13,049 nucleotides of DNA, from positions 1 to 13,049 of the forward strand of contig JASHXW010000213.1 in NCBI GenBank assembly GCA_030043395.1. Reading direction: 5' to 3'. Within the stretch, counting starts at the first letter, position 1. The number at the start of each line of letters is the position of its first letter. A program made the position numbers and the translations under genes. The notes beneath the pieces are model-generated. The model was not told the origin of the DNA and searched no databases. It saw only the letters and a program-made list of their open reading frames with translations. Below are positions 7,177 through 12,010 of this stretch, in pieces. The DNA comes from Streptosporangiaceae bacterium (GTDB lineage Bacteria > Actinomycetota > Actinomycetes > Streptosporangiales > Streptosporangiaceae).

Positions 7177-8631
7177 ATGAAGCGACACCGAGCCCTCCTG
7201 GTCCTCGCTAGCGCGACGGCCGTGCTGTGGGTCGCGCCGCTCACGACCGTAGCCGCATCGGCAACCGGTTCGGTCGCCCATGCCGCCGGCTGGCACCGGG
7301 CCATGGAGGTGCCTGGCCTGGGCGCGCTGAACCGAGGCGGCGGTGCCGAACTGGTCTCGTTGTCGTGCGCGTCCTCGGGCAATTGTGCCGGCGGGGGCTT
7401 CTATCTGGACGGCTCGCACCGCACGCAGGCGTTCGTGGTCAGCGAGGAGAACGGCATATGGCGCAAGGCCTCCGAGGTGCGCAGGTCAGGTGCACTGAAC
7501 GTCGGCGGTGATGCCTTCGTCAGCTCGGTGTCGTGCGCTTCGGCGGGCAACTGCGCGGCTGACGGAGCCTACGCGGACGGCTCAGGCGATACGCAGGCGT
7601 TCGTGGTCAGCGAGAAGGACGGCGCCTGGGGCAAGGCGATCGAAGTGCCCGGGTTCAGCGCGCTGAACGCGGGCGGGAATGCAGGATTCGATCAGTCGGT
7701 ATCGTGCGGTTCGGCTGGGAATTGCGCTGCCGCAGGCAGGTACACGGACGGCTCGGGCCATGCGCAGGCGTTCGTGGCCACTGAGAAGAACGGCACCTGG
7801 GGCAAGGCGATGGAGGTACCCGGCTCTGCTGCCTTGAACGCGGGAGGCGATGCCTTCGTCAGCTCGGTGTCGTGCGCTTCGGCGGGCAACTGCGCTGCCG
7901 GCGGCCAATACGCGGACGGCTCCGGCCATGGGCAGGCGTTCGTGGCGAACGAGAAGGACGGCGCCTGGGGCAAGGCGATGGAGGTACCTGGCTCTGGTGC
8001 GCTGAATGTAGCGGGCGGTGCCGCAATCACCTCGGTGTCGTGCGCTTCGGCGGGCAACTGCGCTGCCGGCGGGTTCTACGCCAGCGCCGCCGCCCGGCTC
8101 AACGGCTGCGGCGCGCAGGGCTTTGTGGTGAGCGAGAAGGACGGCACCTGGGGCACGGCGCTCGGCGTACCGGGCTTGGGCCGGCTGAATTCGGGCGAGT
8201 GCGCACGAGTCTTTTCTGTGTCGTGCGCTTCGGCGGGCGACTGTGCCGCTGGCGGTGGCTACTCGACGAGCCTGGAGCAGGGTGACGACCAGCCGGCGTT
8301 CGTAGCGAGCGAAGTGCACGGCGCATGGCGTAAGGCAAGGAAAGTAGCGATCACAGGACTGAGCGCGGTGATCTCTTCTGTGTCGTGCGCCGCAGCGGAT
8401 TTCTGCGTTGCGGTGGTGTCCTCGGATTCCGGGCAGTTCCTGATCGGCGCGGCGAACGGCTCGTGGGGCAAGGCGTTGCGGCTGCCCGGGCTTCAGCGGC
8501 TGAACAGGGGCCGCGCCGCCGTTCGTTCGGTCTCGTGCGCTCCGGCAGGAACGTGCGCTGCCGGCGGGTACTACACGGGCAGATCCGGTCACGGCCAGGC
8601 GTTCGTGGTCAGCCAGAGTCGAGAACGCTAG
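7177..8631 (+). CDS. Secreted eight-repeat SC-x5-C protein, predicted beta-propeller
   Basis: 484-aa exported protein. Residues 1-36 form a signal peptide (KRHR, hydrophobic core, AHA cleavage site). The rest is eight repeats of 50-61 residues with consensus SVSCASAGNCAAGG, then Y-x-DGSG, QAFV-x-x-E, G-x-WGKA-x-EVPG and ALN-x-GG. Cysteine pairs fall at 64/70, 120/126, 177/183, 233/239, 289/295, 350/356, 404/410 and 454/460. Tryptophans fall at 39, 95, 151, 208, 264, 325, 384 and 430. The chain begins with a W-strand and ends with a QAFVV strand, so the N-terminal strand would complete the last blade, as in propellers with a velcro closure. Such SC-repeat proteins occur widely in actinobacteria with unknown role. 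ATG 7177 has GGGAG 6 nt upstream. Structure inferred, function unknown. Confidence 0.85.
   Translation: MKRHRALLVLASATAVLWVAPLTTVAASATGSVAHAAGWHRAMEVPGLGALNRGGGAELVSLSCASSGNCAGGGFYLDGSHRTQAFVVSEENGIWRKASEVRRSGALNVGGDAFVSSVSCASAGNCAADGAYADGSGDTQAFVVSEKDGAWGKAIEVPGFSALNAGGNAGFDQSVSCGSAGNCAAAGRYTDGSGHAQAFVATEKNGTWGKAMEVPGSAALNAGGDAFVSSVSCASAGNCAAGGQYADGSGHGQAFVANEKDGAWGKAMEVPGSGALNVAGGAAITSVSCASAGNCAAGGFYASAAARLNGCGAQGFVVSEKDGTWGTALGVPGLGRLNSGECARVFSVSCASAGDCAAGGGYSTSLEQGDDQPAFVASEVHGAWRKARKVAITGLSAVISSVSCAAADFCVAVVSSDSGQFLIGAANGSWGKALRLPGLQRLNRGRAAVRSVSCAPAGTCAAGGYYTGRSGHGQAFVVSQSRER
7291..8616 (+). repeat. Eight in-frame repeats of about 150-183 bp
   Basis: Internal repeats of the secreted protein, one per SC-x5-C module. 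Modules 2 and 4 share an identical run of 47 bases (7510-7556 and 7849-7895), and module 5 repeats much of it (from about 8032). Module 7 is the most diverged (lacks the GG-x-Y-x-DGSG part). Confidence 0.85.
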
Positions 8632-8686
8632 CCTGCCTGCCGCGAGTTGCAGGAAACCCGGTAGGGCGTGCCGGACATTATGGGAT

Positions 8687-9307
8687 GTGGCGATCGACTG
8701 GCGATCTGCGAGCGACCTGGAGCTCTGGTCGCACGCCGCCAGCGATTACGCGGGAGAGGCGTTCGGGGAGCTCTTCGAGCGGCACGCCAACCGCGTTTAT
8801 GCGCACTGCTTCAGCCGAACGGGCTCCTGGTCGCTGGCCGAGGACCTCACCTCGGCGGTGTTCCTGGAGGCATGGCGGCGCCGCAAGGAGGTCCGGTTCA
8901 GCGGCGACTCGGTTCTGCCGTGGCTGCTCGGCGTGGCCAACAACGCCACGCGCAACGCCCAGCGCACGTACCGCAGGCACAGCATGCTGCTGGCGAAGCT
9001 CCCGCGGCCAGGCGACGAGTCCGACATCGCGGCGGATGCCGCCGCCCGGGTGGATCAGGAACGCCTGGTAACTCAGATACTCGGCATCTCAAGCCACCTG
9101 CGGAAAGCCGAGCGCGAGATCCTGGCCCTCTGTGACTGGAACGGGCTCAGCTATGCCGAGGCCGCGATTGCCCTCGGCATCCCCGAGGGAACGGTTCGCT
9201 CCAGGCTCTTCCGGGCTCGTCAGCATCTGCGCAGCCTGCTGGAGGACGAGAACGCTGCGGCGTTGCAGGAGGCGCTTGGCTCTCGGTTCGCGGGGGAACA
9301 GTCATGA
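8687..9307 (+). CDS. ECF-type RNA polymerase sigma factor (sigma-70 family)
   Basis: 206-aa sigma factor that directs core RNA polymerase to a private promoter set. Region 2 spans about residues 24-92 (AFGELFERHANRVY, AEDLTSAVFLEAWRRR). Region 4 spans about 127-185 (REILALCDWNGLSYAEAA, ALGIPEGTVRSRLFRAR, the helix-turn-helix). Regions 1 and 3 are absent, as in the ECF group. The GTG at 8687 is chosen because DLELW near the N-terminus is where relatives begin; there is no well-spaced ribosome site. A GGAAAC box (8652-8657) and CATTAT (8676-8681) lie 18 bp apart just upstream and could be an autoregulated ECF promoter with almost no leader, which is weak evidence. Its stop overlaps the next start (ATGA), so the two proteins are probably translated together. 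Confidence 0.93.
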   Translation: MAIDWRSASDLELWSHAASDYAGEAFGELFERHANRVYAHCFSRTGSWSLAEDLTSAVFLEAWRRRKEVRFSGDSVLPWLLGVANNATRNAQRTYRRHSMLLAKLPRPGDESDIAADAAARVDQERLVTQILGISSHLRKAEREILALCDWNGLSYAEAAIALGIPEGTVRSRLFRARQHLRSLLEDENAAALQEALGSRFAGEQS

Positions 9308-9819
9308 CCTATTTCGGCTCGCAATCGGCTCCAGTCTTGCCTGAGCGTCGGCGCCGGGCAGCGAGGGCCCAACTCGAAGAGGTCGTGCGGAACTCCGCGC
9401 CAGGACCGCGCAGATTCAGTCGCAAGGCGAAATGGATCATCTTCGGCAGCGCCTTGCTGTGCGTGACGGCGGTCGCGTGCACCGTGGCCGTGGTCTCCGT
9501 CGAGAACGTGCCGAACAAGACGCAGGCACGCTGTTACACCGTCGACAAGGTCGCAGGCTTTCACATCGGCATTGGCATGGCCAGCACGTCGGCGACTCCC
9601 GGAGAAGTGCGCAACGCGCGCAGCGTCTGCGCCGCCCTTTACCGTGACGGCAACCTGAGGGTGGGCGTAGCCAGGATCGACCCGAAGCCTGGCAGCGGCA
9701 AGCATCGGGTGCCGCCACTCGCCGTCTGCGTGCTGCCTGCGGGTACCGCAGCCGTATTTCCTGGTCATCCGCAGATATGCGCTCGACTGGGCCTGCCCAG
9801 AGCGCGCGCCAGCGGCTGA
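9304..9819 (+). CDS. Single-pass membrane protein, candidate anti-sigma partner
   Basis: 171 aa, not recognised as a named family. A basic cytoplasmic part (residues 1-43, with the likely helix ERRRRAARAQLEEVV at 14-28) is followed by one membrane segment (about 44-66, WIIFGSALLCVTAVAC and on). An outside part of about 100 residues holds four cysteines (C77, C109, C142, C159), enough for two disulfides. The start overlaps the sigma stop by ATGA, the usual layout of a sigma/anti-sigma pair. The short N-terminal helix outside a single membrane span suits a sigma-binding role, but the zinc anti-sigma motif HxxxCxxC is absent. Alternatively it is an exported effector of the same operon. Inference from position and topology. 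Confidence 0.75.
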   Translation: MTYFGSQSAPVLPERRRRAARAQLEEVVRNSAPGPRRFSRKAKWIIFGSALLCVTAVACTVAVVSVENVPNKTQARCYTVDKVAGFHIGIGMASTSATPGEVRNARSVCAALYRDGNLRVGVARIDPKPGSGKHRVPPLAVCVLPAGTAAVFPGHPQICARLGLPRARASG

Positions 9820-9837
9820 TCAGACTAAGGAGCATCT

Positions 9838-10611
9838 ATGGCGTTGCACGGACTCCGCGCCAGCACGCGGATCGCTGTCCGGGCCGGCATCGGCGGGATC
9901 GTGTTAACTGTCCTGCTCGGCTATTCGGGTATATCCGCAGGTCAGCGGGCGCTGGCGGCGGCAGATGCCACATGCTCCTCGCACCACGCAAATGTAGAGG
10001 CATATGACAGCGGAGGGAACGGGTCCTTCGGCGAGCAAGCCGATATCTACGTGAATGAATATTCAAGCCTTAGTTCGCTACAGGATATGATCGCCCGCAC
10101 TATCTTCCTCATGAATGACGCGCAGACATCGGACGTCGAGTTCGGCTGGGTCGACGATGACTACGGCTACTCCGCTCCGGTAGTCGTGAGCGACTACATG
10201 GTGCAGGGGACGACGCAGCCGCCGAGTTTCTGGACCAGCTATTCGCTCAGTTACGACACCACGGTCAATTTCCGGATAGAAAACGTCGGTGACGAGGGAG
10301 TCTTCCGGTACGTCGTAGCTAACGAGGGGTCGCCGATCGCCTATAGCCCGACTATGGGTTTCAACGAGGGCTGGCCGGTCACGAACTCCGAGCACTACAA
10401 CACCTGCGACACGCTGTGGACCGACATGAGCGGGCTGGAAGACCAGTATTCCCTGCAACCCGAGAACTGGGAGTCGTACGTCAACGTCAACTGCTGGAAT
10501 AACACATCAGTCAATGACTGGTATCTCCAGAAGGTCAATTCAGGCGAAATACAGGTCAACCAGAGTTCTAGCGGCAGCCAGGAAACCTGGGGCCTGGACT
10601 GCGCGACATAG
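9838..10611 (+). CDS. Secreted acidic protein of unknown function
   Basis: 257 aa with a signal peptide (about residues 1-41, cleavage near ALA-AADA). The mature part is rich in Asp, Glu, Asn, Ser, Tyr and Trp, with very few Lys/Arg, so it is strongly acidic. It has four cysteines (C46, C190, C219, C255). The order of motifs VEFGWVDD, SYSLSYDTTVNFRIENV, FRYVV, GFNEGWPVTNSEHYN recalls secreted actinobacterial beta-sandwich proteins with a G-F-x-x-GW-x-x-x-x-SE pattern, but I cannot name the family. AGGAG stands 6 nt before ATG 9838, one of the best ribosome sites here. GC is visibly lower than in neighbours and the gene holds an in-frame TTA codon (9904-9906). It is the third gene in the sigma operon, 18 bp after the membrane protein. 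Confidence 0.8.
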   Translation: MALHGLRASTRIAVRAGIGGIVLTVLLGYSGISAGQRALAAADATCSSHHANVEAYDSGGNGSFGEQADIYVNEYSSLSSLQDMIARTIFLMNDAQTSDVEFGWVDDDYGYSAPVVVSDYMVQGTTQPPSFWTSYSLSYDTTVNFRIENVGDEGVFRYVVANEGSPIAYSPTMGFNEGWPVTNSEHYNTCDTLWTDMSGLEDQYSLQPENWESYVNVNCWNNTSVNDWYLQKVNSGEIQVNQSSSGSQETWGLDCAT

Positions 10612-10632
10612 GCTGAGCGAAAGGCACCCGCA

Positions 10633-11283
10633 ATGCAGAGAAAAGCCCCTTGCCACAGGACTGCCCGATGGCATCGAGTCCTGCGCTCGTGGAAATTCGT
10701 CCTGGCCGGATCGCTGGTCGCGGGAACTGTCAGCGCCTGCATGGCCGCGAGACCCAGTGTCTCGGCACCGCGTGTCGTCACTGGCGCAGTGGCTCCCGAG
10801 CCGGGCCAGAACTGGGTACAGCCGCTGCACGGTGCCCGCCGCACGACGATTCCCCGCGCTCGGGCGGCGGTAGGGTTCGCCATCCCGATGCCCGATGTCT
10901 CGTCACCGATTCGCGTCGCGGCCGACCCGCCCAGCCGGCTGAGCTTGCGGCTCAGTCAGGTCTGGGTGAGTCGTGGACGGGAAATCGCGCTTGTCTTCGA
11001 CACGAATAAGGTGACTGTTCTCGTCGGGCGCGCACAGTACGACGATCCTGGCAGGGAATTCCGCCAGGAGCTTGCCGCGATACACGTCGGGCGCGCGGCC
11101 ATCGGGAGCGTTCGAGGCGCACCCGCCCTGGTGATTCAGCCGCGCACCGACTACGTCAAGGCCAATCCTGCGCTGGTCGAGTTCTACTTGCGGGGCCTGG
11201 ACATCGAGGTCCTGAGCACAAGGCTTGGCACAGCGGACCTGCTCGCGATCGCCGCCTCTATCCGGCCTCGCTCGCTCAGCTGA
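10633..11283 (+). CDS. Putative lipoprotein of the sigma operon
   Basis: 216 aa. A basic N-terminus and hydrophobic stretch end in the lipobox VSAC (residues 33-36), so the protein is probably lipidated at C36 and held on the outer face of the membrane. The mature part contains SLRLSQVWVSRGREIALVF and ends in LGTADLLAIAASIRP, a pattern like the C-terminal beta-sheet/helix of DUF4367-type envelope proteins often found near sigma/anti-sigma genes; that resemblance is weak. AAAGG lies 10 nt upstream of ATG 10633, with 21 bp after the previous stop. The stop overlaps the stop of the convergent permease gene by 8 bp. Function unknown. Confidence 0.75.
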   Translation: MQRKAPCHRTARWHRVLRSWKFVLAGSLVAGTVSACMAARPSVSAPRVVTGAVAPEPGQNWVQPLHGARRTTIPRARAAVGFAIPMPDVSSPIRVAADPPSRLSLRLSQVWVSRGREIALVFDTNKVTVLVGRAQYDDPGREFRQELAAIHVGRAAIGSVRGAPALVIQPRTDYVKANPALVEFYLRGLDIEVLSTRLGTADLLAIAASIRPRSLS

Positions 11284-12010
11284 TGTCCCGCCGGTCGGAG
11301 AGGACGATACCGGCAGCCGCCAGCGCGCATGCCCAGGCGATCAAGGTGACCGCGCCAACGCCTGGGGAGACCAGGTGATCGACTCGCAGGCCCATCAGTG
11401 CGTCGGAGGCGCGGGTAGGCGTGAACCGCCCTACCGATGGGGCGAGGCCGAACAAGAGGTTGTCGACGACGAGGCCCCAGGCGAGCAGTGTGATAACCCC
11501 GCCGACTTGGTTGTGGATGATCGCCCCGAGGCCGGCTCCGATCGCGCCCCACAGGGCCGCGCCGGCGAGCCCGCCGAGCGTGAGCAGCAGAATGTCTCCG
11601 CTGGTGAGTACGACGGTGATGCCACGCCCGTCGAGAATCGCGTAACCGACCGCCCAGCCGACTGCCTCGCCGAGGACCCCGAATGCGACTCCGGCCAGCG
11701 CGCCGGCGACGACCTTGGCGGCCAGGACGTGTGAGCGCGCCGGGTTGAACAGGATCGTCGGACGGATCGTGCCGAAGCGGTACTCGCTGGTCACCAGCAA
11801 CACCCCGGCAAGTGCGGAGAACACGCCGGCGAAGCTGACCACGCTTAGCAGCTCACGTTGGTCCTCTCGGCTGACAAGCCCGCTCGGGTGGGTGAGCAGT
11901 CCGGTGAGCAGCGTGATGAGGAGGATCAGCGCGATCATCGCGAGGATCAGAGCGATCGTGGTCCGGGTCGAGCGAATCTTCAGCAGCTCTGCCCTGATCT
12001 GCGCGATCAT
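11276..12010 (-). CDS. ABC-2 type transporter permease
   Basis: 244-aa integral membrane subunit of an export ABC transporter. Six membrane segments can be seen, at about residues 18-40, 56-74, 97-124, 136-163, 171-189 and 216-237. The motif TSEYRFGTIRPT after the second segment is typical of this permease family in actinobacteria. The N-terminal RAELLKIRSTR is the usual cytoplasmic coupling start. Its ATG overlaps the stop of the ATPase gene (ATGA, 12007-12010), so the two are co-translated. It ends in an 8-bp overlap with the plus-strand lipoprotein gene. The substrate is not evident; relatives serve drug, lipid or bacteriocin self-protection roles. Confidence 0.9.
   Translation of the reverse strand: MIAQIRAELLKIRSTRTTIALILAMIALILLITLLTGLLTHPSGLVSREDQRELLSVVSFAGVFSALAGVLLVTSEYRFGTIRPTILFNPARSHVLAAKVVAGALAGVAFGVLGEAVGWAVGYAILDGRGITVVLTSGDILLLTLGGLAGAALWGAIGAGLGAIIHNQVGGVITLLAWGLVVDNLLFGLAPSVGRFTPTRASDALMGLRVDHLVSPGVGAVTLIAWACALAAAGIVLSDRRDIS

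Follow-up and report, generated by a model that had tools for sequence, protein, structure and literature searches.

What controls an ECF sigma factor whose membrane partner carries no zinc motif, and why should two exported proteins without known family be encoded directly behind the pair? These questions are raised by a four-gene locus on contig JASHXW010000213.1 of a Streptosporangiaceae bacterium (GCA_030043395.1), the whole stretch of which, 13,049 nucleotides and here called the window, was analysed. The reading that we consider probable is a self-contained ECF sigma operon, in which the membrane protein (MEM) would hold the sigma factor (SIG), SIG would read its own promoter, and an acidic exported protein (SEC) and a putative lipoprotein (LIP) would be the output.

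All four genes lie on the forward strand. SIG (8687-9307) is a GTG-initiated reading frame of 206 aa, assigned as an ECF sigma factor from the frame, Pfam and its relatives. It has sigma regions 2 (3e-12) and 4 (4e-16, r4_2), both above the Pfam cut-off, and no other sigma domains, as in an ECF sigma-70 factor; it scores 75.1 bits against TIGR02937 (cut-off 42.9), and its sequence relatives in the PDB include SigE, SigK, SigW and CnrH. MEM (9304-9819), a putative anti-sigma factor of 171 aa with one hydrophobic segment, starts within the last codons of SIG through a 4-bp ATGA overlap. SEC (9838-10611; 257 aa, four cysteines) follows after 18 bp and LIP (10633-11283; 216 aa) after a further 21 bp; the 3' end of LIP overlaps the next gene (11276-12010, reverse strand) by 8 bp, tail to tail. 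The earlier note had proposed these four frames, the overlap and the two gaps from the letters of the DNA, and all were borne out, with relatives supporting each of the four as a gene. Neither MEM nor SEC matches a Pfam family at E up to 1, and LIP gives a single chance-level row (E 0.2).

The membrane partner can be divided into three parts. Residues 1-44 (9304-9435, +) form a basic cytosolic segment with a net charge of +8 and a predicted helix at residues 14-31, a transmembrane segment occupies approximately residues 45-63 (9436-9492, +; hydrophobicity maximum at residue 45), and the remainder (9493-9816, +) is an ectodomain in which Cys77, Cys109, Cys142 and Cys159 are invariant in 16/16 aligned sequences. 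The helix comes from a structure model that also predicts a ββ-α-ββ ectodomain, with a mean pLDDT of 64 and poor quality in the membrane part. Fold searches against the PDB, in which a beta-grasp-like ectodomain was considered, gave nothing significant, and a MEM profile run against the sequences of solved structures gave weak unrelated rows only. A relationship between MEM and LIP was considered and rejected, the similarity being limited to hydrophobic stretches. By inspection, His and Cys are absent from residues 1-44, and the segment therefore has no zinc motif. Thus, the short basic non-zinc helix postulated in the earlier note holds up, as do the cysteines of its disulfide-bonded ectodomain, the disulfides themselves being presumed.

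The lack of zinc ligands is, in itself, ordinary. The Hx3Cx2C motif that defines the zinc-binding class I (ZAS) proteins is missing from the cytosolic domain of MEM, and according to PMC7406223 about 48% of the anti-sigma factors of class I that sit in the membrane have that motif, so that roughly half do without it. What sets MEM apart is rather the shortness of its cytosolic segment. With about 44 residues before the span and one predicted helix, MEM falls outside the general definition of class I, and in the curation described in PMC7406223 cytosolic domains under 50 aa were set aside and treated as possible class II. The class II pair CnrH-CnrY does have a very short cytosolic segment like that of MEM, but CnrY uses two helices (PMC7406223), as the class definition has it, with the helices wrapping the sigma factor, whereas one is predicted in MEM. 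Classes I to III are described in PMC8103513, where the class III pair BldN-RsbN offers another likeness, by description: an actinobacterial ECF sigma factor with a partner that is anchored in the membrane and does not belong to class I. Terms for class II do not occur in PMC8999054. Taken together with the gene pairing and a segment common to other sigma partners (see below), the sequence suggests that MEM is probably a minimal non-zinc membrane anti-sigma factor. A positive or mixed activity would have a parallel in RskA, the partner of SigK, which is reported as a dual activator-inhibitor in PMC7509140; no feature of the MEM sequence specifically favours such a role, which we regard as decidedly unlikely.

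Does the pair occur elsewhere? Four relatives of MEM besides itself were found in a protein collection and eight MEM loci among genome contigs, six of them titled Acidimicrobiaceae. Searching 296 genomes of the phylum gave matches in 8, of which three (G007, G196 and G015, with the loci L018, L020 and L021, where L018 is the L010 locus once more) were kept as the four-cysteine type and one (G259, L022) as a distant relative; the four others were dropped as spurious. Read by eye, the rejected L023-L026 are an aminotransferase, two peptidyl-prolyl isomerases and a thioredoxin-like protein. Among 198 genomes of the order there were 6 matches: G006 once more, four distant relatives whose ectodomains are longer (L027-L030) and a single weak row, which was dropped. 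L031, where a 503-aa protein encoded downstream of a different sigma gene gave a weak match, was also discarded. Altogether, 13 separate loci of the four-cysteine type were assembled besides that of the window, and in 11 of them a sigma gene lies directly 5' of MEM. Since three (L033, L034 and L053) had been found through the sigma factor, the unbiased count is 8/10. The two loci without a sigma gene in this position are L010, which meets a contig end, and L020/L065. The pairing of an ECF sigma factor with this membrane partner, as the earlier note had it, recurs, for the most part in MAGs of Acidimicrobiaceae.

A few of these loci have features of their own. The L020/L065 gene (5008-5517, reverse strand), which has no sigma gene adjoining it, encodes a protein whose N-terminus is short and whose ectodomain is of the four-cysteine type, and lies next to a DUF4399 gene and a gene resembling peptidase inhibitor I36. 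In L021 the sigma and MEM frames are both broken, and the promoter motif described below is still there. Upstream of the sigma/MEM pair of L006 (2-1875, +) lies an apparent second sigma fragment and, after it, a protein that has a hydrophobic segment and an ectodomain of repeats.

Starting from the sigma factor gave a wider view. SIG matches 61 of 394 genomes of the class at 1e-30, and in all 30 loci examined the downstream partner (picked by hand in L037, L044, L050 and L061) has a hydrophobic segment near its N-terminus. Three of these partners are of the four-cysteine type, six are larger proteins with 6-8 cysteines, and 21 have few cysteines and are called CU-type here, a label of our own that was not checked against the NF038083 cut-off for each protein.

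The key element of the window operon, missing from the earlier note, is an ECF-type autopromoter at 8652-8678 (+), with a -35 element GGAAACC (8652-8658), a spacer of 13 nt and a -10 element CGGACAT (8672-8678). The motif shared 5' of related sigma genes is GGGAACC-N13-CGGACAT, from which the -35 of the window differs at one position. A matrix built from 12 other loci, with the window excluded, gives this site a score of 21.3; the top score in 100 order-1 Markov windows was 17.7, and the next best site in the window reaches 10.9. Six loci that were not used in training (L021, L048, L049, L056, L057 and L060) score 20.8-25.2. The spacing was examined by letting the spacer vary between 11 and 16 and counting a match when the best site had a spacer of 13 and at most three mismatches. 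Such a motif precedes the sigma gene in 12/12 four-cysteine loci bearing one, the window included, and in 6/6 larger-cysteine loci, 10 and 2 of which, respectively, had been part of the matrix training. In contrast to the window, spacer 13 was found in only 3/21 CU-type loci (L046, L048 and L052), with spacer 12 in four more (L032, L054, L055 and L058); the 5' stretches searched were longer for the larger-cysteine and CU-type loci.

The position of the promoter is informative as well. Its -10 element ends 8 nt 5' of the SIG start codon, so the mRNA of the operon is probably leaderless or nearly so. A comparable distance of 8-9 nt holds for the four-cysteine loci, where the broken L021 was counted without a frame check, and in the larger-cysteine loci the distance from the -10 to the first start codon in frame is 1-21 nt. 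Because the motif with its fixed spacer sits before the sigma genes of MEM-type loci, the operon is probably activated by SIG itself.

These elements could be joined into a simple circuit. MEM would keep SIG inactive at the membrane through its short basic cytosolic segment and helix, until an outside signal acting on the four-cysteine ectodomain released it. Free SIG would then read GGAAACC-N13-CGGACAT directly before its own gene, a recognition suggested by the fixed place of the motif before the sigma genes of the group, and would switch on the whole operon in a positive feedback. The main products, SEC and LIP, would function on the surface of the cell or beyond it. Such a circuit would give a recurring ECF sigma group a defined promoter, a start site and a minimal partner, and would make two orphan families of exported proteins part of a regulated response at the surface.

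How far does this arrangement extend beyond the four-cysteine proteins? The MEM segment resembles, in sequence, the N-termini of the CU044_5270-type partners (NF038083) of the same sigma group. NF038083 matches 27 of 33 scanned partners at E up to 1. MEM itself scores 15.3 bits (E 0.013), with residues 14-69 aligned to positions 2-55 only, against a curated cut-off of 100 bits over 284 positions, which places it outside the family proper. With an HMM of the cytosolic N-termini of the 21 CU-type partners, the segment of the window scores 18.9 bits, compared with 8.7 bits for the highest-scoring of 1600 shuffled segments. Above that best shuffle lie 11/16 four-cysteine and 6/6 larger-cysteine segments; below it lie the other five four-cysteine segments (L004, L006, L007, L008 and L020), and the distant relatives of greater length (L022 and L027-L030) do not rise above it either. 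In the reverse test, an HMM of four-cysteine segments placed 10/21 CU-type segments above the best shuffle (15.8). The MEM profile also matches the larger-cysteine proteins, and in three of the six (L050, L056 and L057) the match runs to position 167-168, through the ectodomain.

A related system of the CU044_5270 kind is found on a Streptomyces clavuligerus plasmid (I3J09_RS30830/I3J09_RS30835), where the sigma factor is 49% identical to SIG and the partner, like MEM, lies directly 3' of it with a 4-bp overlap and a similar N-terminal segment. CU-type partners differ from the 171-aa MEM with its four conserved ectodomain cysteines in being mostly 330-381 aa long (three of the 19 measured are 212-330) with 0-2 cysteines. 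The tag CU044_5270 was absent from the literature searched, which did not include the main ECF classification paper and in which other names may be in use. It is conceivable that the segment common to the four-cysteine, larger-cysteine and CU044_5270-type proteins marks one minimal single-helix anti-sigma class outside classes I to III, with interchangeable ectodomains, and that in the cysteine clade this segment drives a closed loop directed chiefly at its own leaderless operon, with exported products that vary by locus and are themselves the response. As a whole, this extension is tentative and attracts more doubt than confidence.

The two exported proteins are a different matter, as the pair of them is rare. 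SEC is strongly acidic (pI 4.05; 31 D+E vs 8 K+R) and has 12 relatives, and LIP has three besides itself, all from metagenome or assembly sources. By inspection, a lipobox-like V-S-A-C ends at residue 36 of LIP, and its cysteine is also present in the relatives P0019 and P0021 and missing in the third, P0020. A database call starts LIP later, at 180 aa; the 216-aa start is favoured here because the N-terminus of P0019 is conserved and an SD-like GAAAGG lies upstream. The structure model of SEC has a mean pLDDT of 31. Against PDB sequences, the SEC and LIP profiles gave weak unrelated rows, with best E values of 0.085 and 0.85, and PHROGs gave no useful match. A C-terminal pattern had suggested DUF4367 for LIP, and Pfam gave no such match. 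In 296 + 197 genomes, plasmids, phages and viral contigs, SEC was not among the matches listed; since the genome searches scored a capped number of candidates and included no genome known to carry SEC as a positive control, this absence is weak evidence. LIP gave two weak rows in the 296 genomes, both judged spurious, one of which recurs as a match to the signal-peptide region only.

Conservation of the four genes as a unit is not supported: the core sigma/MEM pair is kept, and relatives of SEC or LIP were found in 0/99 other loci scanned, which goes halfway towards the refutation that the earlier note had set out. This absence is the main argument for regarding SEC and LIP as unrelated passengers 3' of a sigma/anti-sigma pair, especially as the sequence reaches more than 1 kb past MEM in 11/13 four-cysteine loci (L004 and L009 end too soon). 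On the other hand, the two genes share the strand of the pair and its close spacing, 18 and 21 bp, with no promoter site above 10.9 of their own. There are also hints of linkage elsewhere in the sizes of contigs, as MEM P0002 and SEC P0007 each lie on a 1972-bp JGI contig and SEC P0011 and LIP P0020 each on a 3404-bp ENA contig. These coincidences are suggestive, and fall short of proof, of a MEM-SEC and a SEC-LIP linkage; no such coincidence occurs for MEM P0003 (23,388 bp), P0004 (9,337) and P0005 (12,089), SEC P0017 (17,850 bp) or LIP P0021 (57,386 bp). On balance, mere passengers seem unlikely.

If SEC and LIP do belong to the circuit, they could still stand at either end of it. The earlier note left them as ligand, modulator or output, and of these the output is favoured here because the operon has a single promoter, at its front. 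As input, SEC could bind the MEM ectodomain as its ligand, or LIP could modulate that ectodomain as a lipoprotein. The lipoprotein CseA, a proposed modulator in the Streptomyces sigma-E system, is a model for such a LIP; in sigE-cseA-cseB-cseC an ECF sigma gene is likewise followed by a lipoprotein gene, although that system works with a two-component system and is not known to have a membrane anti-sigma partner, unlike the window. Further support comes from exported I36-like genes, which lie within about 0.6 kb of MEM in 4/13 four-cysteine loci: L005 (6805-7371), L011 (7020-7589), L053/L064 (3858-4577 in L064) and L020/L065 (4103-4828 in L065). They are on the same strand as MEM in two loci and convergent in two, and only the L065 protein is above the Pfam I36 cut-off. 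One copy was found in each of 5/11 genomes, beside MEM in four of them, by a profile that had been built from these same four neighbours, which biases the count. Moreover, L020/L065 retains MEM and the I36-like gene without a sigma gene. But SEC has no detectable relation to the I36-like protein (rejected at an hhalign probability of 0.7%), the four I36-like genes have no promoter motif of their own at score 13, and the position of the two exported genes downstream of the sigma promoter fits an output as well. An input role is thus somewhat unlikely, and the output remains the preferred reading.

The mycobacterial SigK-RskA system with MPT70 and MPT83 has a gene order different from that of the window operon. 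In function, it is the nearest precedent (PMC7509140). Two differences are that RskA has a class I domain (PMC7406223), which MEM has not, and that the best E values of the SEC and LIP profiles among PDB sequences are no lower than those given above.

A strict promoter pattern gave 30 matches in 17 related genomes, comprising 13 sigma autopromoters and 17 others, and a reversed control pattern gave 10 in the same genomes. The strict pattern undercounts targets, as it would miss the site at 8652-8678 of the window itself and three related autopromoters, those of G657, G666 and G690. Two of the 17 other matches were judged plausible: one precedes a gene for a 458-aa membrane protein adjoining the sigma gene (L087, G004), and the other precedes a 275-aa gene, 2.2 kb from the sigma promoter (L078, G543). 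Away from sigma genes, G664, G690 and G708 share one site that stands equally far upstream of a similar ORF (L079, L091 and L092), and another recurs in G690 and G708 (L080 and L098); these may be real targets or else conserved coding sequence. The picture, short of proof, is of a largely local regulon.

Elsewhere in the window, two tRNA genes were found by Rfam on the forward strand (1370-1441 and 1480-1552); the ORF listed at 15-1415 extends 46 bp into the first of them, and its listed end may be doubtful. Just 5' of the sigma operon, the gene at 7177-8631 (+) encodes an exported 484-aa protein with repeats of approximately 56 residues that each carry a C-x5-C pair, and contains a DNA array at 7423-8072 with 3.9 copies of a 168-bp unit. 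This gene was left out of the operon because the promoter stands after it. The gene 5' of the sigma gene in L006 is weakly similar to this repeat protein (E 0.001).
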